Source: Geosiphon pyriformis
Lineage: Eukaryota > Glomeromycota > Glomeromycetes > Archaeosporales > Geosiphonaceae
DNA: 64,000 nucleotides
NCBI GenBank assembly: GCA_016748015.1
Contig: JAAOMT010000675.1
Coordinates: 241,341 to 305,340 of the forward strand
Reading direction: 5' to 3'
A program made the position numbers and the translations under genes. The notes beneath the pieces were generated by a model. That model was not told the DNA's origin. It ran no database searches and saw only the letters and a list, made by a program, of their open reading frames with translations. The stretch's first letter is position 1. The number at the start of each line of letters is the position of its first letter. Positions 12,502 through 55,667 of the stretch are shown here, piece by piece.

Positions 12502-12710
12502 CTATCGAAATATGAATTGATCGCGAGATTTCAAGGAAGACATCGTCAATTACAGATAAATGTACGCAAAATTTTTTCACAAAGAAAAGACACGCATCAC
12601 GAGGTATTAGTCAGAAGGTCGTACAATTAAATCATGCATGCAGAAGTTGTGATAACAATAAGTTTTGATCATAACTATTTTGAGAAAAGGTAATGCGTTT
12701 CTTGGATAGG

Positions 12711-14419
12711 TTGCAATTGTGGTTGTTCAAAAAAGATCCCAAAAGAAAAGTTTGCTGAATTACATGAGGCATTTCAAGCTCTCTCTAGATCCGAACAAGA
12801 TATATTTTTAATGGCCCAACTGAAAGCGGTGGAGTGATAACTGCCAGTCGACATCTTAAAAAGAAAACGAATAAAAGAACTTTTTACTATTGAGATCGCA
12901 AAACGCCTCTGTCAGAAAACGTATCTCAATATGTTGGAAATTGGTCGCACTCACTTCGAAAACGTCAGAAATCACCTAGCGGCGAATGGATAATACCGCG
13001 CGTTCATGGTAATGTAAAAAAAGTGCCGCGATGGAAAACCAAAATAACCATTGATATAACCGTTGCTACCGTTATGAAGAATTTTCTCGAAAACTATGCT
13101 GAAATCCATGGATTACCAAGTCCTGGTAGAAACGTCAACCGAATTACTCAATCGCTTACACTTTTGCCAGCCGAAACGAGCTACAAATCGGTCTATCGCG
13201 ATTTTATTGCGAGCCTCGAAAATGATAGCACGTTGAAATTGTTAAAATATGATGCATTTCGCAAGTTATGGCACCAATTAACGCCTTATATTCAAATTAT
13301 GAGTCCACGAACGGATTTTCCAACATTTTCGGAATGGTTTACAGTATAATGCTCGCAAGGAGAAGAAGAAGAAGAAGAAGAAGAAGAAGAAGAAGAAGAA
13401 GAAGCAAGAGACTTACTAAAAAGGTACAAAGAACATTTAGTTAAGGCTAAGTTGGAGAGAAATTATTACAACAAAAATACGAAATTAGCAGAACAACAGA
13501 GGAAATTGGTGGATGAGCATTTTAGAACAAGAGGTAAAGCTGATTATTGTAGCGTTGACGCTACTGCTCATTACAGTTACGATTGGGCACAAAACGTTCA
13601 CGTACCCCATTCCGATCAACATGTAATTGAAATTTATTACCTCAGTCCGTGTAAAGTGCATTTATTTGGTATACAAGATGAAGCAGTACGCGAACAAATT
13701 AATTATGTTCTCGATGAGGACGAAATTATCGGCAAAGGTCCTAATGGCACGCTGACCCTGGTATTCGATGGAATAAAGAAATTGAATAAAGGTGAAAAAC
13801 ATTTAAAAATTACTTGTGACAACGCGGGTGGTCAGAATAAAAATAATGCTACCATTTGATTTTATCTATATTTAGTAATTTGCGGTTATTATGAAACTAT
13901 TGAATTAAATTTTATGGTACCTGGACATACCAAATTTAAGTGTGATGGTAGTTTTGGATTGAATAAAAACTATATCGCAAAACAACGGTGGATTGCGTGA
14001 ATCATATTGTTGAAGTTGTGAAAAAATCGAGTACAGCGGGATTAAACAAGGCTCAGCGTTATGACAACGGAAAAGGTTTTCAATATTTAGATATCAATTC
14101 TGTTTTAGGAATTTTCTTTAAGAAATTGAATGGTATGCAAAAGTATCAGCATTTTCTTTTTGAAGCAGCTCATCCAGGAGTTGTCAAAGCTCAGCTAGTT
14201 GCTAGTGGTGCTTATGGCGAATTTAATCTGTTGAAAACTAGAAAAACAAGTGTTTCCGAAATTACCAAAGAAATTAAATCCTTTTCAATCCTAGTACTAA
14301 ACCCTCCTCCATTGGACTACAAACGCCAAAAGTATCTTGACAAAATTATTCGCCCATTTGTCAGAGATGAATTTAAAGACATTTCTTGTCCCAAGCCAGT
14401 ACTAAATGTAATCAAGTAA
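12711..14419 (+). pseudogene. Broken transposase-like gene (DUF7869-type)
   Basis: Pieces in successive frames read as one protein. It starts near 12711 with GCNCGCSKKIP, then PRVHGNVKKVPRW (near 13000), an ENYAEIHGLPSPGR block, an acidic GAA-encoded Glu run, and then the core: DYCSVDATAHYSYDWAQNVH, IDEDE-like LDEDEIIGKG, CDNAGGQNKNN, PGHTKFKCDG and KYQHFLF. This order of conserved Asp/His-bearing blocks is typical of a widespread eukaryotic mobile-element protein family (the DUF7869 region). Damage: a frame change before 12840, TGA near 12886, TAA at the 13349 end, TGA at 13857-13859 where the family has Trp, and a frameshift in an A-run near 13970. TGG is still used at several other Trp sites. 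Function as a DDE-type transposase is inferred from family knowledge. Confidence 0.65.
13360..13404 (+). repeat. (GAA)n microsatellite
   Basis: About fifteen GAA triplets, in frame with the transposase-like gene, where they encode a poly-Glu tract. Confidence 0.95.
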
Positions 14420-14539
14420 TTTATATATTAAACAAAAAAATGTTTAAATAAACTTTATTAATCGTACTAACGTTAAATAACTAAAATAAGTAATGAGTGT
14501 TCTGTGACTAACAATCCAGTAAACTTCTATTTTTTCTCG

Positions 14540-15046
14540 TTAATTAATAAGTAAGTGCTTAACATAATAACAATAGTAAAAACTGTTCCTAAGGATTCAA
14601 TTAAATTGTTTTTCTCTATTTATTTGGGCTTCTAATCTAGTTAATTCTTCCTTTTTGCTTTGCAATTCTTGTTCGTGCAGAGGAGTTCCACCAACATTTT
14701 TAATTTCTCATTCTTTTTGTTCAATCTCACTTCGTAATTGGGAAATTATTTGCTCCTTTCCTCAGTTTTTTTCTCTTCATTCTCTCAATGCTTGTTCTTT
14801 ATGTTTAAGATAGTCTTTATCACCTCTTCATTTTAAATAGTAAGCTTCAGGATCTCTTAATTTTTCAGCTAATCTTTCGTTTTCCATAGTCCCAACAAAT
14901 TTACCGGCTTTATTAAGTGGTCTTCCTTCCCCGTGGTTTTTGCCTCATCATTTTTGCAAAGTGAATTTGGGAAACAGCACAAGAGTAATATTATCCTCTT
15001 TTCACTCTTTTTCTAGTTGACCCAATTCTTTCGTTTTCTTTTTCAT
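14540..15046 (-). CDS. Mollicutes-type ORF read with UGA as Trp, 168 aa
   Basis: From the ATG at 15046-15044 one frame stays open for 168 codons to TAA at 14542-14540 if TGA is Trp (genetic code 4). It holds eight TGA codons (residues 15, 33, 34, 73, 90, 95, 113, 150), no TGG, and no internal TAA or TAG. Under the standard code it is shredded. The protein is very hydrophilic: an N-terminal half with QKWWGKNHGEGRPLNKAG and then a Lys/Glu-rich helical region likely to be a coiled coil (REKNWGKEQI, SEIEQKEWEI). The last ~20 residues lose this character and may be read-through beyond an original end. It starts 8 bp after the stop of the next gene on the same strand, as in a bacterial operon. Family not recognised. 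Origin from an endosymbiotic Mollicutes-related bacterium is inferred. Confidence 0.8.
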
Positions 15047-15054
15047 TCATTAAC

Positions 15055-16118
15055 TTATTTTCTTTCCCTACTTGCAGGGAATATATAAAAATCGTGGCAA
15101 TTAATTTCTTCTTCCATTTTCTGCATGAGTTCTTGTAATACTTCGCCAAATTCCTTTCAAATTGAGGGTTCTAGTGATAAGAATTCGTCATTTGAAACAC
15201 GTTGCTTTGATTCAATAGTAGTGTATCCAAAAGCTATTTCATTGTGTAATCTCGCAATCACTTTGCTTTTTCCAGCAATAATATTATCTGCGGTGGGTTG
15301 CAAAACTTTTTCAGTTAACTCTACTTGCTCGGGAGTGGCTGGTTTATACTCTTTTGCTCAACACTCATTTCCGTAACTTTCTTTGTATTTTGGAACTATA
15401 CGAGCAAAAAAATGAGGAGAGTTTGACCAGCAAGGTTTCCTGTTGGTATAAAGCGGAAGCCTGCAGGATAGTAAACTTCGTCTATCTTTTTCATAGTATC
15501 CTTATATGCTTTTTGCTTGACATCACACAATGGGCTTTTGCATTGGGACGAATATTGGCAAAAGTAAAAAATCTTCCTCTAAGTCGGATACATAGCAATC
15601 ATACAAACCCTTTTCGCGAAGGACTACACTGTCACAGCCAAGGCAGGCTTCTTTACAATCAGATTTGAGACAAGCATAATTAGGTGTATTGTCTAAATTA
15701 AAGGTAAAATGTGTGGATTGCTCGCCTTTTTCAATTTTGTTTGAACAATTAGTACACCAAGAACAAACATGGTGTTTACCGTCTTCATAGACACTAACAT
15801 CTCAATGAAGATAGATTTTACATTGGGGGCAAGTGGCGACAATTCTGTCTCACTTTCATTGGTCATGCTCGTTTAACTGTTTTACTCTTCAAGGCCAATC
15901 ACCACCCTCTTTATTCTTAAATTTTTCTAGAGCTTCTCTAAAAATTCTCTTTTTGTTCCTTTCTCTTTTGCACATTTATTTAGTTCTTGTTGAACCATAT
16001 TTTGTGCGCAATCTCAACAACAAAATTTGTCAGTTCTTTCTTCGGTGTTAGGTACTGGAACTGAAAAATTATTTCCTTCCTTTGTATTTTTACAATTAAA
16101 ACATTCTTTTTTAGTCAT
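15055..16118 (-). pseudogene. Mollicutes-type Cys-rich zinc-ribbon protein, three frameshifts
   Basis: The start is ATG at 16118-16116 and the end is TAA at 15057-15055. Read with code 4 and allowing three one-base shifts (near 15950 in a T-run, near 15570 in a T-run, near 15440) the product is about 350 residues. It uses TGA for Trp at least seven times and TGG three times. Cys pairs suggest several zinc ribbons: CFNC at the start, FCCWDC, CPQC, CSWCTNC, CLGC and CQYSSQC. The C-terminal ~130 residues are continuous and Cys-poor, ending FPASRERK. Shifts in homopolymers suggest decay after transfer, though sequencing error could mimic them. Family not recognised; the Trp codon use is the main evidence for a Mollicutes source. 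Confidence 0.75.
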
Positions 16119-16360
16119 GATTACTTATTAATATAGTAAGTTTTAAGCAATTAAAAAAAAAAGCAAACTACCTATTTAATACAAAAAAAAAACTTTTAAT
16201 TCACAGTGAGAGTCCGAAACATTAATACTGTGTTTAGAAATCTCATTAATAAAGCTGACTAAATGGTAAAATTTTTTGTCCAGATATTTTTGTCTTTTGT
16301 TTTGTAATGGTACATCATTATCCTGCTTTCTTTCTTAATATTTATTATTTTTCGTTCTTC

Positions 16361-16531
16361 TTAGTAAATTTCATAAGTGATTTTTTCTTTCTGTAGATAT
16401 TTCTCGAGAATTTTGGTGTCATTCATTTTAAAAACGTATGAAGCAATTTTTTCTTGTCCTTTTTTTAGAATGCTTTTAATTGTGCTGTAATTCTTTGGTT
16501 CCATAATCGATTTAATGTAAATTAGTTTCAT
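16361..16531 (-). CDS. Small Lys-rich ORF, 56 aa, probably of the same block
   Basis: ATG at 16531-16529 to TAA at 16363-16361 encodes 56 residues (MKLIYIKSIM start, Lys about one in five, ending KITYEIY). It contains no Trp, so the code cannot be judged. It lies upstream and on the same strand as the two code-4 ORFs and has similar Lys/Ile-rich composition. A further short open stretch with a VSFINEISKHS-like reading lies between it and the zinc-ribbon gene (16.2-16.35 kb). Could be chance, but the composition differs from the fungal exons nearby. Confidence 0.4.
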   Translation of the reverse strand: MKLIYIKSIMEPKNYSTIKSILKKGQEKIASYVFKMNDTKILEKYLQKEKITYEIY

Positions 16532-16694
16532 ATTTATATTTTAATATAGATATAATCCTATATTAAGCATATTGTAATTCAAGTAAAAGTCTATCTTAAT
16601 CATATAATAAAAATATTACAACCGGGATAATCAAAATGTAGTCAAATTAACTTACAGCCACACCAGCTTCTTATTTATATCACATAATCAAATC

Positions 16695-16925
16695 TTTACT
16701 TTGTCTGGTTTTGTTGCAGCATGTCTCATTTCAAACTAGATTGGCATTAGTAAATGGCCATTTTAAGACTTTGTATAACTTTTGTGGTAGTTTGGGAACT
16801 ATTTATCCAAATACTGCTACAGTAGAATCTGACTTTTTCAATTCTTGGATGAAAAAAGAATGAACATAGATTATCTTTAACAGATTTTTCACTTGAGGGT
16901 ATTATGAATTATAAATAGTTTGAGA
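16695..16925 (+). pseudogene. C-terminal fragment of a hAT-like transposase
   Basis: One frame reads FQTRLALVNGHFKTLYN then PNTATVESDF; after a one-base shift it continues FSILG, TGA, KKNEHRLSLTDFSLEGIM. The combination TVESDFS followed by LTDFSLEGI is a hallmark of C-terminal regions of some hAT-related transposases (family memory, not verified). The TGA falls where Trp is expected. The upstream part of the transposase is absent. Confidence 0.45.
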
Positions 16926-34297: not shown

Positions 34298-37200
34298 CTA
34301 TACATCTATATGCACAAAAACTGGATCTCCAATACCTGAAAAAAATGGACAAAACTTACGAAACCCAAAACCAACTCCAAAAGCCTCAGCCACCCCCAGC
34401 AACCTGACCACACCAGCCGAAAACACTATAGGCAAACCAGAAATTGAAGCAGGAGCGGAGCCATCACGTGGAATCAAACCGTGCTTTTCCATAAATGCTC
34501 AGTGTTTGGCCCAGACCAACCAAACATCTTTCCGAAACGCTAGACAAAACTCATGCACAAAGCTCACAATCCTCTTAGCACCCTTCTTAGAATCTTTAAA
34601 GACCAAAACAGACTCACGAAACCATTTATCGAAAACAAAGCCCTTACACAGAGCAACACCAACCCCAACCTCAGAAACACAAGAAGCCAAGGCCTGTAAG
34701 ACACATAAAGAAGAGCAAGAAAGACCAGAAAGAGCCTCCCAAGCTGAAGCATGTGCGCCCAACAAATGAGCATGGCCGACAGCATCCTGAGGACACGAAA
34801 AGACATGATCTGAGGTTTCAACGTCACCACAAAACAGACAGACCACATTGGGGTATCTCCTATCATATAAACATTTGCACACAACAACAGGAAGCCGATG
34901 ATGGAGAGCCTTCATAAAGTAAGTACAACAGTCTGCTGTGCACATGTTGGTAAAACCGGATGCCAAGTGAGAATCGGGGTGCCACACCATAGAAAACATA
35001 GACCAATTGATATTAGCATGCAAACTATTATCCACAATATAAGAACCCACTCCAATCTCCCAATGAGCTTGATGAACTGACCGGAAAACATCACAAATAA
35101 AGTGTCTAGAATTACCAGAAACTGCCGTATTACCAGCACATAAAAAACATTTACTGACTAAATAAGGTAGGCACCAAGCAGAGAGAGCAGCATCTTTGGT
35201 GAGTGCATTAGCACGCTCATTGCCTGAGACACCTGAATGACCTTTTACCTTAACCCAATTCACATCCAAATTCTTTTGATGAATGACGGTGGCAATGTGA
35301 CAACGCTCGATCCAACAGCGGTTCCTGAAATCCAGACAAACCAGTAAAGACTCTGACCTACATGCATCCAAAGCAGCCTGGCTATCTGAGAACAAGTCAA
35401 TTGAACGAGAAAAAGAAACACACTCAAGGGCCAAAGCTATGACTTGTAGTTCTGTCAGAGTAGAAGAAACCAAACCAGACACCCCAACACCCAAACCCAA
35501 GTTAATGTCCTCAAAAAAAACAGCAGCATCTGCTCTCATGTCAACAGTGCCCAGACCAGAAAGAGACTCATCCGTATACACAGAAAGGCGGGCAGCATCA
35601 ATGGTTGGCAAAGTGTCACGAATCACACCAAAATCACGAGAAAGATGAATATCAGACACAGCATGACCATCCACCAAAGAAGAACTTGAGGAGAGAGGCA
35701 CAACGCTACCAAGAAAGCGAACAGAAAGATTAAACCAGAAAGGGACTAGGCCACGAGGGTCCAGCCTCTTCCAACGCTTGAAGATCCCCCAACTGAAAAC
35801 ATCACCATTACAGTCACGAAGCTGTTCCACGAAAGCAATTCCATAATGCCTGAGTGAAGAGATATACTTGAAAAAACAGGATTTACCAAGAACCAAAGAC
35901 ATAGGAGTACTGCACTGATGACAAAAAGCACAAGCTAGAGGGCCTCCCAAAGACAAATCACACCCAGAAAAAATGTGAACCACACCTGCCAAAAAATTAT
36001 CCGAGGGACTGATACCAACATGAGCCGGAAACAGTAAGGGATGACAAGGACGCCAGTTGAGAACCTGGAGGTCATGAGACCTATAAGAAAACAAGCGACC
36101 CAAGACACCAGTAGAATTTGCAAAAGCAACAACGGAGGCCAATTTACTCTCAGCTTGGATCTGTTCGAAAGTTTTTAAATTGTACAAAGAGGGGTGATGA
36201 AGTGCATCACTGGGGAAATCACATGGCAATCCAGACTTAAACTTTAAGACCTTGCATACCAAAGCATCCCATTTACTACAAACACCAACAGAAACAAAAC
36301 TGAACTGAGTTCTGTAGCTGATGATGGGGAAAAGAACTGCAAACACCAAATATGCACACTGTTTGTCCGAAATCGCCTTTCTCAAAACAAGATTCACAAA
36401 AAACCGTACATCAGCCTGAGTTTTAGCCAAGCTAGGCTTCAATAGACTCTTAGAAGACAAAAAAATACCCAAATAGCAATGAGATTCCCCTCTCTTGGCA
36501 ATGGAAATAGGCACACCACTGATAGTTAAATGAAGATCCAGCACCCAGCAATTGATGAAGATGGCCACCGTTTTGTCATTGTTCACAGAAATATCGTTAA
36601 ACTTAAAAAACTCACTAGCAATATCAAGAATGCATTGTGTAGCAGCCTGGCTGCTACCAACCCAAATAGTATTATCGACAAAAGCGCCAGCAGCAAGAAA
36701 TGAAAACAGCCCAGCTTGAGGATCCACTCGGCCAGTTCTTAATATGAAATGAAAATTCAACCTGTAATCATACATACTATTTTGTCTCTTGACCTCGCAC
36801 AAAAGTGAATCATAAAAAATATGCCAGAGAAGAGGCAAGAAGACTTCCCCCTGATCCAGCCCATTATGGACACAATATCTGTTAGTCAAGCCAAAGTCAG
36901 TCATCACTCTGTTGACGTGACCCTTGTGAATACTGCCAAAAAATCTAATAAACCTGTCACACATTTTGATCCTGACTAGACTCTTCCTAAGATGTTCCCA
37001 ATCAACCGAATCATAAGCCTTGCACATGTCCTGTAAAACCAGCCAAAGTTCACGGTTCTTCTCCAAGGCATCCTCAACCACAGAACTGATAGCAAAAATG
37101 GGAGATTGCGTCGTCGTATCCTTCAAAACTGAAAAATTGTTCCCACGAAGAACATCAAAAGTGCTGCAAGCCAGAGAGATCCTATCTGAAAAGATCTTGG

Positions 37201-38986
37201 AGAGAATCTTGCGGGCTGTTTCAATTAAAGCTATAGGACGGGTGTTCGTTAGAACTCCCTCCCATTCATATGGTTTAGGAATCATCGAAACCCAAGCTTC
37301 TCTCCAAGGCCCAGAGACTGACTTGTCAGCCAAACAGAAATTCAAGAGCACTAAAAGCATATCCAAAACAGATTTGTCACAATGTTTCCATAATTCGTTG
37401 GAGATACCAGAAAGACCAGCCACTTTTCCATCAGAAAGATCCTTAACAACAGCTGACAACTCATCAAAACTAATCAAACGCATGACATCAGAGAAAGCAC
37501 CATCGAACACGTAATCCAGAGGCCGATATTAATGAGCCCAATTCTCAAACAAGTCAGACACCACCTCACGTTTCCTGGTCCATCTCTTCATAATTTTGTC
37601 CACCTTAGACTTAACCAAAACAGGCTCTAAAATCAACTTATCTTCTACAACCAAATGATCCAGGACCACCTTGCAAAAAGGATGCTCCAAAACACTCCTA
37701 ATGGTGTAACCCTTGTTCAGCTCAAAACTCTCCATCCTCTTACCAATAGCCTGTTTGATCGAGGATTCCTCAGCGCACTTGGATTCCACTAACTTGAAGG
37801 AGCGGTATAATTTTCTTGCTTTGGCCAGCACAGAACAAATAAGATCAAAATTAGAACCTGAAAGAAACAGAGACTTAACCACCGATGCACCAGGGGAGTC
37901 AAGTCTGTGCCACACCTCCAACAAAGAAGCAAAACCATCACTAAAAGCCAAACGCGAAGCCTTAACCAACTTAGAAACCAGCAGCTCCAGCTTGTGAAAC
38001 CTAAAAGAAGTCTTGGTAAACACGTCATCAAAATCTTTGAACCATTTTTTCTTAAATGTACCACCCACTGAAAGAACCATAATCTTGTGAACAATGTCCC
38101 ACATAGCATCCACATCTGCAAATCTGACTGCCACACCAAAAACATCTGAGAACATAGAAACATTAGCAGCTGAGACATCCCTGAACTCCAACCACTTAGC
38201 TTTATTGGCACTTTTGACGTCAAACTTCCAACAGTCTTTATTCACTTGCTTGTGAAGAGAATTCAAACGTGTATCCAAGAGCCCACCCAAACCCAAATCC
38301 ACTGAAACAGCTTGTTGGTCCATGTCAAAATGCTCACTGACATTCAAAACTTCATGTCGCACTATCGCATTGACAAGACTCGAGGAGACAAACACGTAAT
38401 CAATAGTTTTCTTAACACCCCTAGAATTTTCCCAAGTGGGCATTTTTGCAGCTGCACTACCAACTAAAGAATTGACCAGACCCAAATCAAAGCATCTTTT
38501 GAAACTTGCACTTTTATGAGAGCCGTTTTTATTAAAATCGCCACTGAGAATAATGAAAAAAGATTTGTTGACAGTCTTTGCAATGAGAAAATTGACTTCA
38601 CCAGCCTGAGAGAACTGAACCACCGAAGAAGCACCAGCATAAAGCCCCAAAATCAACACAGAAAGTTTGCTCTTGAAAAGTAATTTAATGGAAAGGAGCC
38701 GACCAGGCACCTCAAAAACCTTGCACACATGACAAGCCAAAGAAACGTCCATGATAACAGTAACACTTGCACCCAAGTGACCGGAGTCCAAACCAGAAGA
38801 GAACACTCGGACACCATCAAACTTGTCCGCAATCCATGGACAAACCTTACTCTTTAATTTCGTTTCAGTAATGATAGAGACCAAATTGTTCATTTCCTTA
38901 TGCCACCTAATAATGTCCTCTTGCTTAGCGGGATTGTTCATGCCCCTGACGTTACATGTAGCAACTTTCCAGACTAAACTGCTCAT
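34298..38986 (-). pseudogene. LINE ORF2: endonuclease, reverse transcriptase, RNase H
   Basis: One frame of 1,562 codons from ATG 38986 to stop 34298, interrupted only by TAA at 37531-37529 (CAA-type) and TGA at 34501-34499 (CGA-type; the 29 kb copy has SHR there). Endonuclease residues ~1-235: N12, E41 in TETK, D150 in SGDFN, D197 in IDYVF, H219. Reverse transcriptase follows: DMCKAYD (~653-659), and the catalytic box reads FVDN (~769-772) instead of the usual xxDD. RNase H ~1135-1270: YTDES, TELQ and FSDSQ are present, but the last Asp site reads ERAN. The zinc motif CLFCGDVETSDHVFSC is near the C-terminus. The product would nick target DNA and reverse transcribe the element RNA; at least two acidic catalytic residues appear lost. 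Confidence 0.93.
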
Positions 38987-39068
38987 TGAGTGAGGGGTAG
39001 AGACACCGAAAGTGCACCCATACTATCCATCTTGGCCGAAAGGCCTAGAACTGTCTCCATCAGACACT

Positions 39069-40775
39069 TCATGCTGTCTTCCAGCTTAGACACTGAAGAT
39101 ATATCAAAAGACACCACTCCGCAACATTCCCACTACTAGTGAACACACCTGAACCCTCACTTATCACTACATCCACCCCTTGATCCTGTGATGAAGGGGT
39201 CACCAATGGCTGACATCCAGGGCTAGGCTGGGGAACTGTTGGCCCGAGTACATCCAACCTCTTAGCCAGCTTACCAACTTGCTCCGTGAGGCTGGTGAGA
39301 CTGCGCTCAAGAGCGGCAAACCTATCGTTGACTTCCATTGCAACCAGTTGGGATGGCTTCATTTCTGAAGAGGAGCCATTATTCACCACAACGTTTTGAC
39401 TAGAGAGAGGGGGCGGAAAACACCCGCGAGCAATCTTTGCCTAAGAGAGACCACCAAAAGAGACCGGACGGGCAACTGGAGCCAAGTGTTTGGCATAGAT
39501 GGTTGCTAGCCTGCTTTTATCCGTATCCGAGAAAACCCTATGCAGCAAACTACCAGAAGATAATTTCCCACCAACTGCACAACCCAATGACGTGTGACCC
39601 AATTTCTCACACTTGGCGCATTTAGCAGAAATGAGGCGAGACCAGCAGAGATTGGTGTTCCTGAGTACTGGTGTGGTTCCCACAGCAGCATCCAATGATT
39701 CAGCAGAGTCGAAACAAACAACAGCACACCTGGCCCGAGCATACATAACAGAATGACGATCAATGACACACGTTTTCTCACCCACAGATCTAACAAAGTC
39801 CTAAATATCATGAGTGTTGGTCCCTATCGGCAATGTATAGAGCAGTGCCCTATGTTGGTCCCTTACATCCCATGCTTTCTTGTCTGAATCAGCCCTAGCC
39901 ACACGTACAGCATCTTTCCCGATTAAAATAAACTACTCAGCTGCGACCAAATCAGCCTGATCCAATTGTTCGAATTCCACCATCGCCTTCTGCCACAGCC
40001 TGATTAACTGCATCTTGATCGCCTTAATAACTTCAAACTCGGATAGCACAGCGCGCACAGCCTCAGCCGATGTTCCAATTGGAATTTCTTTTATGACCAC
40101 AGCCCAATCTGATCGCTCAGATGATCTCTTAAGATCAATGTTTACCATAATATTTGCACCAGTAGCCTTTTCAGTGGCTTTCATTAGACTTGATTCGGAA
40201 GTGAATGTCACTCTGATGATATCTGAAAATTTTGAGGGAGTAGATGCCCCCCCAAAACTATTAATTCCAGAAAATAATTTCCTCACCACCACAAGTTTTT
40301 CCTGAGAAGATTTGCCAGCCACTTTATCCAAGCCAATATCCAATGCGAATGACTTCCTGACCAGAACATTGACCAAATTTTTCATAGAAGAAGGGAGCTC
40401 AAGAGGAGCATCCGAGAAAACACCATCATCACTACCAACTTTTGAGAAGTCAATCTTTCTCAATGGCTTGCCCAACGCCTTCTTGGTTTTAACCTTCAAA
40501 CTCGTGGGCATCTGATCATAATCTCTACCAGCCAGAGCTCCACCATCACCATAATCAAAGCTGGTTTCCTCCACCAGACACTCCTCTTCCATATCAACAC
40601 TCTCAGACTTAGTAGTGTCCCCAGTCTCTGAACTCCATGAACAAACACCAGGAACTCCAACAGCAATCCCTCCATTATCAACACCCTCTGCCAACGCACC
40701 TCTCTTCCTCTTTTTTCTTGATGCAACTGCCTTAAAACCACTCTCAGAACCAGAAACTTTAGCAGTTTTTTTCAT
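39069..40775 (-). pseudogene. LINE ORF1: nucleic-acid-binding protein
   Basis: One frame of ~568 codons from ATG 40775 to 39069 with three internal TAG. The first, near 39930, stands where Trp fits (AAE-stop-FILIGKDAV). The second, near 39800, and the third, near 39440, stand where Gln fits. The N-terminus is basic (KKRKRG). Residues ~386-399 form a CCHC zinc knuckle, CAKCEKLGHTSLGC (C-x2-C-x4-H-x4-C). A short heptad-like segment follows (FAALERSLTSL). ORF1 proteins of this kind bind the element RNA. Confidence 0.9.
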
Positions 40776-40923
40776 AACAGCAATAACAGAGCCAACAGTA
40801 GCCTCGTAATCGAAGAACGGTTTTGATTTATCGTACTGAATGGTAAAAAACTTCTTTCGAAAAAACTTTTAACTCTTTTTTTGGGAATTTTGGACGAAAG
40901 AGAGAAAGAAGTTATTTAATTTT

Positions 40924-53280: not shown

Positions 53281-55667
53281 TTAACCACACTCTCCTTCCA
53301 CATCACATTCTTCTGGCTCCTCATCATCACTTCCATCGTCTGGACTAGGAGGTTCAGATTTTCCGGTATTATTTTTTCCTAGTCTCTTTTGATACCCTAA
53401 CTTCAAATTTACCAACACAGGATCATAGGTTTGCTGACGACGGAGTTTCAATAATTCGAGAACAGGATCAGAGGAACTTGCTACAACATGCGGCTTTGTG
53501 GATGAATCTTTAATGCTATTTTTCTCTTCTGCTTCCTTCGCAGCTGCGGCTGCATTTAATTCGATATGCTGTTGCTCAAAGATTTTCTTGGCCTCGTGTT
53601 GCACAGTAAGCATGTCTCGTTCTGCAACTTTGGTTGTTTCTGTTAATGATTTAATCGTGATTAATACGCTAGCCAATACCTCTTTGTAAATTTCAGATTC
53701 AATGTTGGCAAAGAGGGTGATTGCCTCGGCTGCAATATCATCAATTTCCTTGGCATAGTCCTCAAATTTCTTCTTTTTAGCTTTTTCATGTTTCTTGATG
53801 GATTCTCGAATATCATTCTTTGCTTCAGAAACCAGCTGAGTTAAAAGGCTCTCGGTTTCTTTTTTGTGATTTTCTATTTGTACTTTGAGAGTTTCTAAAG
53901 AATTTTCAGCATCCTTTCTGGCCTCTTTAGCCTTCTCTTTAAGTTGATCCAAAGCTTGTTTGGCAAATATAGTAACAGTTTCTTTTTTGTCGGATATGTT
54001 CTTTTCCGTATCCTGCTTCATTTGTTGCGTGAGTTGTTCAATTTTAAGGACATGTTCGGTACTCGAACTCTTGATAGTGTTCGGTTTAATCATAACAAGA
54101 TCCAGCGTGGTATTTTTGATATTTTCGACGTTAGTTTTGAAACTCTCGATATTATTTGAAACATGATCTTTGAGCTTTTTGAGATTCTTTGATACGGCTT
54201 GATGAAGGGCAATTGTAGCAGTTTCAATGCTCGCCAATTCAGCTGCTTCTTTGGCTTTCCTCGCTTCCTCGGCTTTACGTTCAGCTTCCAATTTGGCTAA
54301 TCTTTCGCGCTCTGCCTTTGCTTTACGTTCAACCTCCAATTGGGCTAATCTTTCGCGTTCTGCCTTTGCTTTACGTTCAGCCTCCAATTTGGCGAGTCTC
54401 TCCCTTTCTACCTTTGCTTTACGTTCAGCCTCCAATTTAGCGAGTCTCTCCCTTTCTACCTTTGCTTTACGTTCAGTCTCTTCTTTAATTTTCCTTTCTG
54501 CTTCCTCCTTTGCTTTTCTCTGGGCCTCTGCTTTTCTTTCAAGTTCTGCCGGGAACATGGTATAATAAATAAATTCCCAACCCGAAAGAATCGGAGGCTT
54601 GATTTGTGTTTCAAAAGTTGGAACAATTTTATGGATGTAGGTGTCTCTAATCACTATGATAGTGTTATAGACCGTAGGGTCAATGTAGTCATTATAGAGG
54701 ACAACAAGAGTATTCCATGATTTATTAACAAAGGATTCAAGGTTCTTTTGATACCAAGGTTTGACTGTTTTCTCGTTATACTTGGATACCCTGGCATATG
54801 CTAATGAAGCCTGATATTGGAAACGGTTCCAATAAGGATTTAAAATTTTGATCATCTCTTGATACGCTGAGTCAACGTGTTCTTTGACATATTCGTTATA
54901 TAGCTCTTTAGATATTTCCCAGGCCGAAAGAGCAGGTGCGTGAACATAGTCGAAATAATATGTTTTGACAATCTCGACCTTAGGCTGAGCAAAATCTAAG
55001 TAAGGTTTAGCATTACTTTCATACTGCAAATATGCCGAAGAGACCCATGGTTGTCCATGGTCGTTATAACTTTGCTTGAGTGTTTGTAAGGTTGGTTCAT
55101 AAAAATTATCTTTAAGTAGGATTATCTTTGGTTCGATGTATTTTTGGAAAAGGTCATGGTGGATGATATACTGGGATATGCCATTTGAGCAAACGTAATT
55201 ATTGAAAGGGGTTTGTTCTTTGATCGACCCATCCCCACAAGCAAATACCACATAAGATATGTAAAATACGAAAAAGTTTTCCCAAGTAAAAATCCGACGT
55301 ATAAGTCCTGGACTTTTTTCTTTCTTTTTAGCCTTCAAAGATTCAGATATTAAAGAATGTCAGTTGTGCAAGGGGAGAGGTGATATTTAGAAAAAAGTAG
55401 ACTTACTATATTCACTTTCTTATTAACCTGAGTTTTAGGCTAAACATAAAAGGGAAAAAGAACCAAAGTTCAGACTTCTTAATTGTCACTTGGAAATATG
55501 AAAGAAGTTCCAACGCAACTGACCTTTGTTTGTTTGTGTGGAATAGCACTCTCAGGTTCACGGATTAATGACGAATTCTTTTTACCGTTAAGTTGAACAG
55601 TACTGCCATTCACTTCACTTTTCGCCATCGGTTTCTTACTCTTTTTACTCTTTTTGCCTTCTCCCAT
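53281..55667 (-). CDS. Membrane-anchored coiled-coil protein, three exons, 742 aa
   Basis: Exons 55667-55524, 55439-55407 (33 bp) and 55332-53281 join in phase 0 through introns with donors GTCAGT and GTAAGT and acceptors TTTAG and TTGAAG; a branch-like CTGAC precedes the last acceptor. Start MGEGKKSKKS. Residues 1-72 are basic and hydrophilic. Residues ~74-91 (IFTWENFFVFYISYVVFA) are a single membrane segment. Residues ~95-320 are rich in Tyr, Pro and Trp in loosely repeated Y-x-P-x style units. ~322-420 is a Lys/Glu/Arg coiled coil with four 16-residue repeats (ERKAKVERERLAKLEA type). It is followed by more coiled coil to ~680 and an acidic tail ending ECDVEGECG. The layout resembles fungal She10/Osw7-like spore-wall proteins, but that is tentative. 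The only long intact gene in the right half of the window. Confidence 0.85.
54283..54474. repeat. 48-bp coding tandem repeat, four units
   Basis: Encodes the 16-residue coiled-coil repeats of the gene above. Units two by two are nearly identical, suggesting stepwise duplication. Confidence 0.85.

Follow-up and report, generated by a model that had tools for sequence, protein, structure and literature searches.

The window, i.e. the whole analysed stretch of 64,000 nucleotides, contains on its minus strand, at about 14.5–16.1 kb, a HIT-domain gene that is broken into four pieces, all readable in genetic code 4 (UGA as tryptophan). The frame under study is the last of these pieces. It represents the 3' part of the gene (14540..15049, minus strand) and comprises 169 codons plus TAA, with nine TGA codons including the first codon, no TGG and no internal TAA or TAG. 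The earlier note had reported a UGA=Trp frame with eight TGA, no TGG and no internal TAA or TAG; this frame is real, its eight TGA being those after the first-codon TGA, and it has relatives in its own genome. A second piece (15055..15501, minus strand, two TGA) includes the end of the HIT domain and the part following it, and a third (15502..15975, minus strand, five TGA and two TGG) the Cys-rich part preceding the domain. The gene begins with a piece at 15927..16124 (minus strand) that starts with MTKKECFNC, shows a CxxC motif and is frame-shifted against the next piece; like starts are present in the related loci L005 and L006. The remnant of a small gene lacking tryptophan (MKLIYIKSIMEPKNYS...) is found at 16361..16531 (minus strand), and longer copies of it elsewhere have a basic tail at their end. 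On the plus strand a broken DUF7869 gene, a putative transposase, occupies positions 12684..14419, with the Pfam match at 13653-14087 and TGA at two of five Trp columns. An expansion of GAA/GAG repeats, encoding a run of glutamates, lies inside it at 13350-13404. The right terminus of a mobile element follows at 16695..16727 (C404:258035-258067, plus strand) with three mismatches to a 33-base pattern, and it adjoins the tetranucleotide ATTT (16728..16731, no strand), presumably a target-site duplication; for the copy in the window the left end and the partner of this duplication were not found. Elsewhere the window contains a standard-code non-LTR retrotransposon with reverse transcriptase and RNase H (34502-40868; GC about 40% in AT-rich surroundings) and a standard-code gene of 692 residues with tandem ERKAKAERERLAKLEA-type repeats and no Pfam match at 0.01 (53284-55359).

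Length is weak evidence for the frame under study because a code-4 frame of at least 169 codons was reached in 30 of 1000 dinucleotide shuffles of 14420-16730; its conservation is what marks it as real. A search of its own genome gave 11 matches at nine places (window included), the best of the others being on contig C320 with 86% identity and eight TGA. The second piece gave 14 matches at 11 places and the third seven at five, again with the window included. At the Trp columns of the frame distant paralogs often have TGA too, sometimes TGG or another codon. The longest relative of the HIT gene seen is L005 on contig C330, a code-4 frame of 436 residues with 15 TGA and no TGG that meets one TAA at a Trp column and then continues in frame for 144 residues (in total 19 TGA, no TGG and one TAA); thus this copy is also broken once. 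L005 and L012 exceed the curated cut-off of the HIT family (PF01230; 33 and 31.1 bits versus 21.5) and the broken pieces of the window gave no match to this family in the Pfam search. The His-x-His-x-His triad is not kept in any of them, the corresponding motifs being HFYMW (L005), HFYMR (L012), HFYLR (L013) and HFFAR (window). Matches of the HIT protein to bacterial families are far below the cut-offs (Mycoplasma HinT, 0.0014; an actinobacterial family, 1.7e-6). The genes of the window and L006 have 15 TGA-TGA and three TGG-TGG pairs in common, and by eye their frames break at different places, so the copy from which both descend could probably still be read in code 4. For these two decayed copies dN/dS is 0.075/0.177, above the values of the transposase. 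Between the same two loci dS is about 0.18 in the HIT gene and 0.48 in the transposase, which suggests an exchange of modules between elements.

The main gene of the element reaches 59.5 bits (4.5e-16) with the DUF7869 profile (PF25273, cut-off 26) and the copy in the window 44.6 bits. The assembly shows at least 35 matches to PF25273, at least 34 of them over the Pfam cut-off. The locus set used below (n=37) comprises 34 of 35 PF25273 matches plus three loci reached via the HIT gene, and leaves out C258:351142, which is below the cut-off. A whole gene of 584 codons from ATG to TAA, with three TGA and two TGG, is found in L020. This protein probably represents the transposase of the element. 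As to the DDE/DDD fold of class II transposases, its sequence gave no credible match to a solved structure in the PDB, and the structure predicted for a 198-residue fragment from the window has a pLDDT of 36.5.

The frame under study is a passenger of this transposon rather than a foreign fragment lying next to it. The copy in the window has the HIT gene, the flanking DUF7869 gene and one end in common with several other copies. The element has inverted ends of about GGGGCRTGCTGCAACAAAACCAGACAAAGTGAACAT and a 4-bp target-site duplication that is mostly ATAT. When up to three mismatches are allowed, the assembly (124.7 Mb) contains 77 matches to the 33-base terminus, 40 in forward and 37 in reverse orientation, and a reversed control has none. 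Seven left-right pairs of termini lie within 9 kb, and all seven are flanked by an identical 4-bp duplication, which is ATAT in five pairs and ATTT and AAAT in one each. Because the element prefers ATAT, a match by chance is not rare for a single pair (about 0.4 per pair, a hand estimate from 13 ends), and seven out of seven would occur by chance with a probability of about 0.001. Terminal inverted repeats and a target-site duplication of fixed length (4 bp in 7/7) are thus present, as in class II DNA transposons. Two of the seven end pairs, L031 (C81:37692-38112) with 421 bp and L032 (C370:2169520-2170058) with 539 bp, are short like non-autonomous derivatives, and they have the same ends as the full element and ATAT duplications. 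Two loci with more diverged ends show a 4-bp match by eye (L017, AAAT; L018, ATAT). A motif resembling the inverted end (AAAACCAGACAAA) occurs again just before the transposase start in L020 (near 2400), L012, L019 and L049 and may represent either a former inner end or a binding site. In L030 (C280) the end of the element at 12878 is located about 170 bases from a tRNA gene at C280:13048-13118.

These ends bear on several explanations. The earlier note had seen stray DNA adjoining transposon remnants, a view that is mistaken or at least incomplete since the frame and the neighbouring DUF7869 gene belong to one mobile element and are both written with UGA as tryptophan. As an alternative it had named an assembly chimera, which is very unlikely: relatives of the element are spread over many contigs of up to 2.7 Mb. 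Undetected endobacterial sequences do occur in public assemblies of Mucoromycota, as described in PMC11423566, but copies on so many long contigs and duplications at 7/7 end pairs leave chimerism or contamination with a probability close to nil. On the other hand, its claim that UGA=Trp genes reside in the chromosome of a standard-code fungus was right. Bulk endobacterial DNA, pasted like nuclear mitochondrial DNA beside unrelated fungal transposon remnants, would also account for code-4 genes in fungal contigs, but these genes sit within defined ends and duplications, the flanking transposon gene is itself in code 4, and, within the scope given next, bacterial rpoB and 16S did not appear. The rpoB profile gave three matches in the assembly and none over the bacterial cut-off; two of the three were examined and have Rpb2 domains, common to bacteria and eukaryotes, and by eye we take these two for polymerases of the fungus itself. 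No bacterial 16S was among the five scored of 277 candidates. The SSU and 5.8S rRNA sequences recovered are of eukaryotic type, and the organism is presumably an arbuscular mycorrhizal fungus. Since the ends alone already speak against it, this explanation is very improbable.

Two side observations concern rDNA and RPB2. L015 (C320:1044776-1046602) is a copy of rDNA near a contig end with substitutions in SSU stretches which we take to be normally invariant, so that it is perhaps a decayed rDNA unit. L025 226-1716 (G000:C362 near 1340277) contains an RPB2-like gene interrupted by roughly 300 residues. Pfam domain 6 breaks off at this insert and is taken up again at position 354, which gives the insert the look of an intein; since two frames are involved, it may also be an intron.

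The codons of the DUF7869 gene show how UGA was read. At five columns where the readable copies have tryptophan, the 37 loci show 79 TGA, 51 TGG, six TAA and no TAG. None of the 15 loci that show all five columns has TGG throughout, i.e. none can be read by the standard code, and TGA occurs at one or more Trp columns in 33 of the 35 loci showing at least one column, the remaining two being decayed fragments. Among the 26 long loci (at least 360 aligned residues) of the 37, which were used for the heterozygosity comparison and the tree, 16 are free of TAA and TAG in the aligned part; they have 47 TGA and 28 TGG at Trp columns and two TGA elsewhere. The mean A/G heterozygosity in the 26 long loci is 0.35 for tryptophan (5 columns) and, at conserved columns of the other amino acids, 0.29 for lysine (35), 0.24 for glutamate (21) and 0.24 for glutamine (19). 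TGA and TGG behave as synonyms and are exchanged as freely as the A- and G-ending codons of Lys, Glu and Gln. A tree constructed with the Trp columns left out requires at least 2, 2, 4, 3 and 2 changes between TGA and TGG at the five columns (at least 13 in total, counted on the best tree only, in which seven of 23 inner branches are starred). Under code 4 the dN/dS ratio, calculated for 17 loci, is 0.05–0.16 wherever dS stays below 0.9 (67 of 136 pairs; dS 0.19–0.78), cells with less than 50% local identity being excluded from all codon counts including those for dN/dS, which lowers dN somewhat. The DUF7869 gene has diverged while purifying selection acted on it, and TGA and TGG served it as synonyms.

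Neutral decay of a standard-code gene, with TGG turned into TGA by G-to-A changes, might be considered since many copies are broken and the genome is AT-rich. A change from TGG to TAG is equally easy, however, and no TAG is opposed to 79 TGA at the five columns; six TAA together with zero TAG reflect the one-step decay of TGA and not of TGG. With 16 of 26 long loci still free of TAA and TAG in the aligned part and a low dN/dS in addition, we hold such decay to be extremely improbable.

The host apparently uses the standard code. Two frames in the window, of 1009 (RVT_1 and RNase_H domains) and 692 residues, contain 24 and seven TGG and no TGA; the lack of TGA is partly a matter of choice because they were picked as standard frames, their run of Trp codons is not. 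Exons of RNA polymerase subunits agree with the standard code under the same proviso of selection. Two of the 60 tRNAs recovered are tRNA-Trp, both reading CCA. With 63 of the 7180 candidates scored this set is incomplete, lacking tRNA-Asp and tRNA-Tyr, so it may also miss a UCA tRNA. A pair of tRNA-Trp patterns matched 90 stretches in its UCA form (245 in the reversed control) and 29 in its CCA form (26 in the control), and it is insensitive because it missed both places with the known CCA tRNA-Trp. ARAGORN found no tRNA in the 55 of 90 UCA-pattern stretches examined, and the other 35 matches are nearly all one repeat, three members of which were among those examined.

These data bear on the possibility that the element is a transposon of the fungal nucleus and that the fungus itself decodes its UGA codons, by a suppressor tRNA or programmed readthrough. 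Such reading would account for movement in the nucleus and for the host genes inside elements, and the nuclear-signal-like tail of the small protein (see below) would fit it. The free exchange of TGA and TGG is nevertheless unexpected if UGA were costly, the frames of the host use TGG, both tRNA-Trp found are CCA, the loose UCA pattern led to zero tRNAs in 55 of 90 stretches (though it missed the known CCA tRNAs), and passenger genes such as L005 contain 19 TGA and no TGG. We consider this explanation unlikely. From the selection on the gene, the synonymy of TGA and TGG and the standard code of the host we infer that the DUF7869 gene evolved in a code-4 cell.

Besides the HIT-like gene, the code-4 passengers include a protein of 326 residues as well as coiled-coil and Cys-rich proteins. 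The 326-residue protein (L016; three TGA, six TGG) has no Pfam match and presumably resembles HAD hydrolases. The coiled-coil and Cys-rich passengers of L020 have five TGA and no TGG and three TGA and one TGG, respectively, and L019 carries such genes too. The small protein without tryptophan (MEPKNYS...) ends with PRKKRK, PRKRRK or SRKKRK in five of eight matched frames, a basic tail which we take to resemble a nuclear import signal. This cargo also bears on the question of another code-4 source, namely the fungal mitochondrion or one of its plasmids. Fungal mitochondria likewise read UGA as tryptophan, but neither HIT proteins nor the other passengers nor DUF7869 are known as mitochondrial cargo, and we regard this origin as quite improbable.

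The whole elements examined (on C330, C294, C309, C355 and C280) are 5.2–8.6 kb long and have left parts with standard-code frames, which we read as exons parted by introns. The left frame of C280 is protein-kinase-like (28.7 bits versus a Pfam cut-off of 31.7; six TGG, no TGA), and those of C309 and C355 share a homologous protein, so at least three of five elements (C280, C309 and C355) offer evidence that these frames are genes. For the left-part frames of C330 and C294 no match was found beyond a weak one between C294 and C355 (5e-4), and the left gene of the C280 element has no second DNA copy in the assembly. If these host-like genes lie inside the transposed unit, as the duplications indicate, the composite moved within the nucleus. 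Any simple account has most difficulty with this point, as none of the nuclear copies examined could provide the enzyme under the standard code.

Among 29 transposase copies, compared in pairs that align over 600 bases or more, no two are nearer to each other than 5.0%. A recent burst from one nuclear master copy is therefore not apparent, and many diverged, selected lineages appear to have fed the nucleus. Such lineages are easiest to explain if they live elsewhere, in code-4 cells. Taken together, it is likely that the frame under study is a passenger of a cut-and-paste transposon that was selected in a code-4 cell, most probably a Mollicutes-related endobacterium of the fungus, and was inserted in the fungal nucleus. 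This suggests that the element moved between symbiont and host. An endobacterial, Mollicutes-like source, as proposed at the outset, remains the best guess, with the donor deduced indirectly. No relative came up in a genome-contig collection, searched with one HIT piece and the transposase alignment A1, nor in viral contig, phage and plasmid collections. All these searches are weak because several patterns contained tryptophan, presumably turned back into TGG alone, and A1 entered the scan as two short peptides. No Shine-Dalgarno-like site precedes the code-4 frames (at best two to four of six bases), which is neutral to unfavourable for bacterial genes.

According to the sequence of events we propose, selection on DUF7869 would have taken place in a code-4 cell, most likely the Mollicutes-related endobacterium, and elements from many diverged endobacterial lineages would have entered the nucleus. 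There the transposase may have inserted them into AT-rich fungal DNA, and some nuclear copies may then have come to hold standard-code fungal genes. Our preferred guess is that the active transposase would be imported to the nucleus from the endobacterium, and the small protein with its nuclear-signal-like tail would fit such an import. Only tentatively we extend this to a transposon with two compartments, which would evolve in the endobacterium with UGA as tryptophan and jump to host chromosomes, while its proteins would act in the nucleus and the small Trp-free protein with the PRKKRK-type tail would serve as adaptor. Nuclear copies without a transposase of their own, moved only by the bacterial protein, would gather fungal genes, so that bacterial-code and fungal-code genes come to stand side by side in one element.

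Differences in genetic code are generally regarded as a barrier between gene pools. In this fungus a family of nuclear transposons has retained, under selection, a code which the host apparently does not read. If the origin proposed is true, the family documents that DNA passed repeatedly from a code-4 symbiont to a eukaryotic nucleus, and the traffic of protein-DNA complexes from endobacteria to host nuclei becomes testable. In practice, annotation by the standard code will overlook genes of this kind in fungal genomes or break them into fragments.

Compared with known systems the element shows both likenesses and differences. Its main gene is over the curated domain cut-off of the DUF7869 proteins (PF25273), for which Pfam gives no function and no paper was found in a literature search with subscription papers mostly outside its scope; here such a gene is written with UGA as tryptophan and sits in a mobile element. 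Inverted ends, the 4-bp duplication and, by eye, the Asp-bearing motifs CDNAGG and KCDGSF resemble Sola2-type DNA transposons in their general traits. To our knowledge the code and the cargo of the element are unlike those of any Sola2-type or other DNA transposon with 4-bp duplication. With the HIT family (PF01230) it shares the domain, which scores above the cut-off in L005 and L012, and differs in the loss of the His triad. In the literature searched, again with subscription papers mostly outside, no description of a nuclear transposon in a foreign code was found. The main text of the report on plant-type MULE transposases in a mycorrhizal fungus (PMC5982333) mentions neither genetic code nor UGA. 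Sailor is likewise a DNA transposon that was horizontally transferred between prokaryotes and eukaryotes, and its main text (PMC8533490) is without the terms Mollicutes, Spiroplasma, Mycoplasma and endosymbio, and the passages considered describe no foreign-code copies. According to PMC10507103 and PMC11423566, such fungi harbour Mollicutes-related endobacteria, which are annotated with the Mycoplasma code and into which host genes have passed. The gene transfer reported in the first of these concerns the same kind of partners and runs from fungus to endobacterium (MGMT, and PknD with LRR). It comprises single genes that entered the bacterium, in a main text without the stem transpos, whereas here a mobile element is found in the fungal nucleus and is written in a bacterial code.
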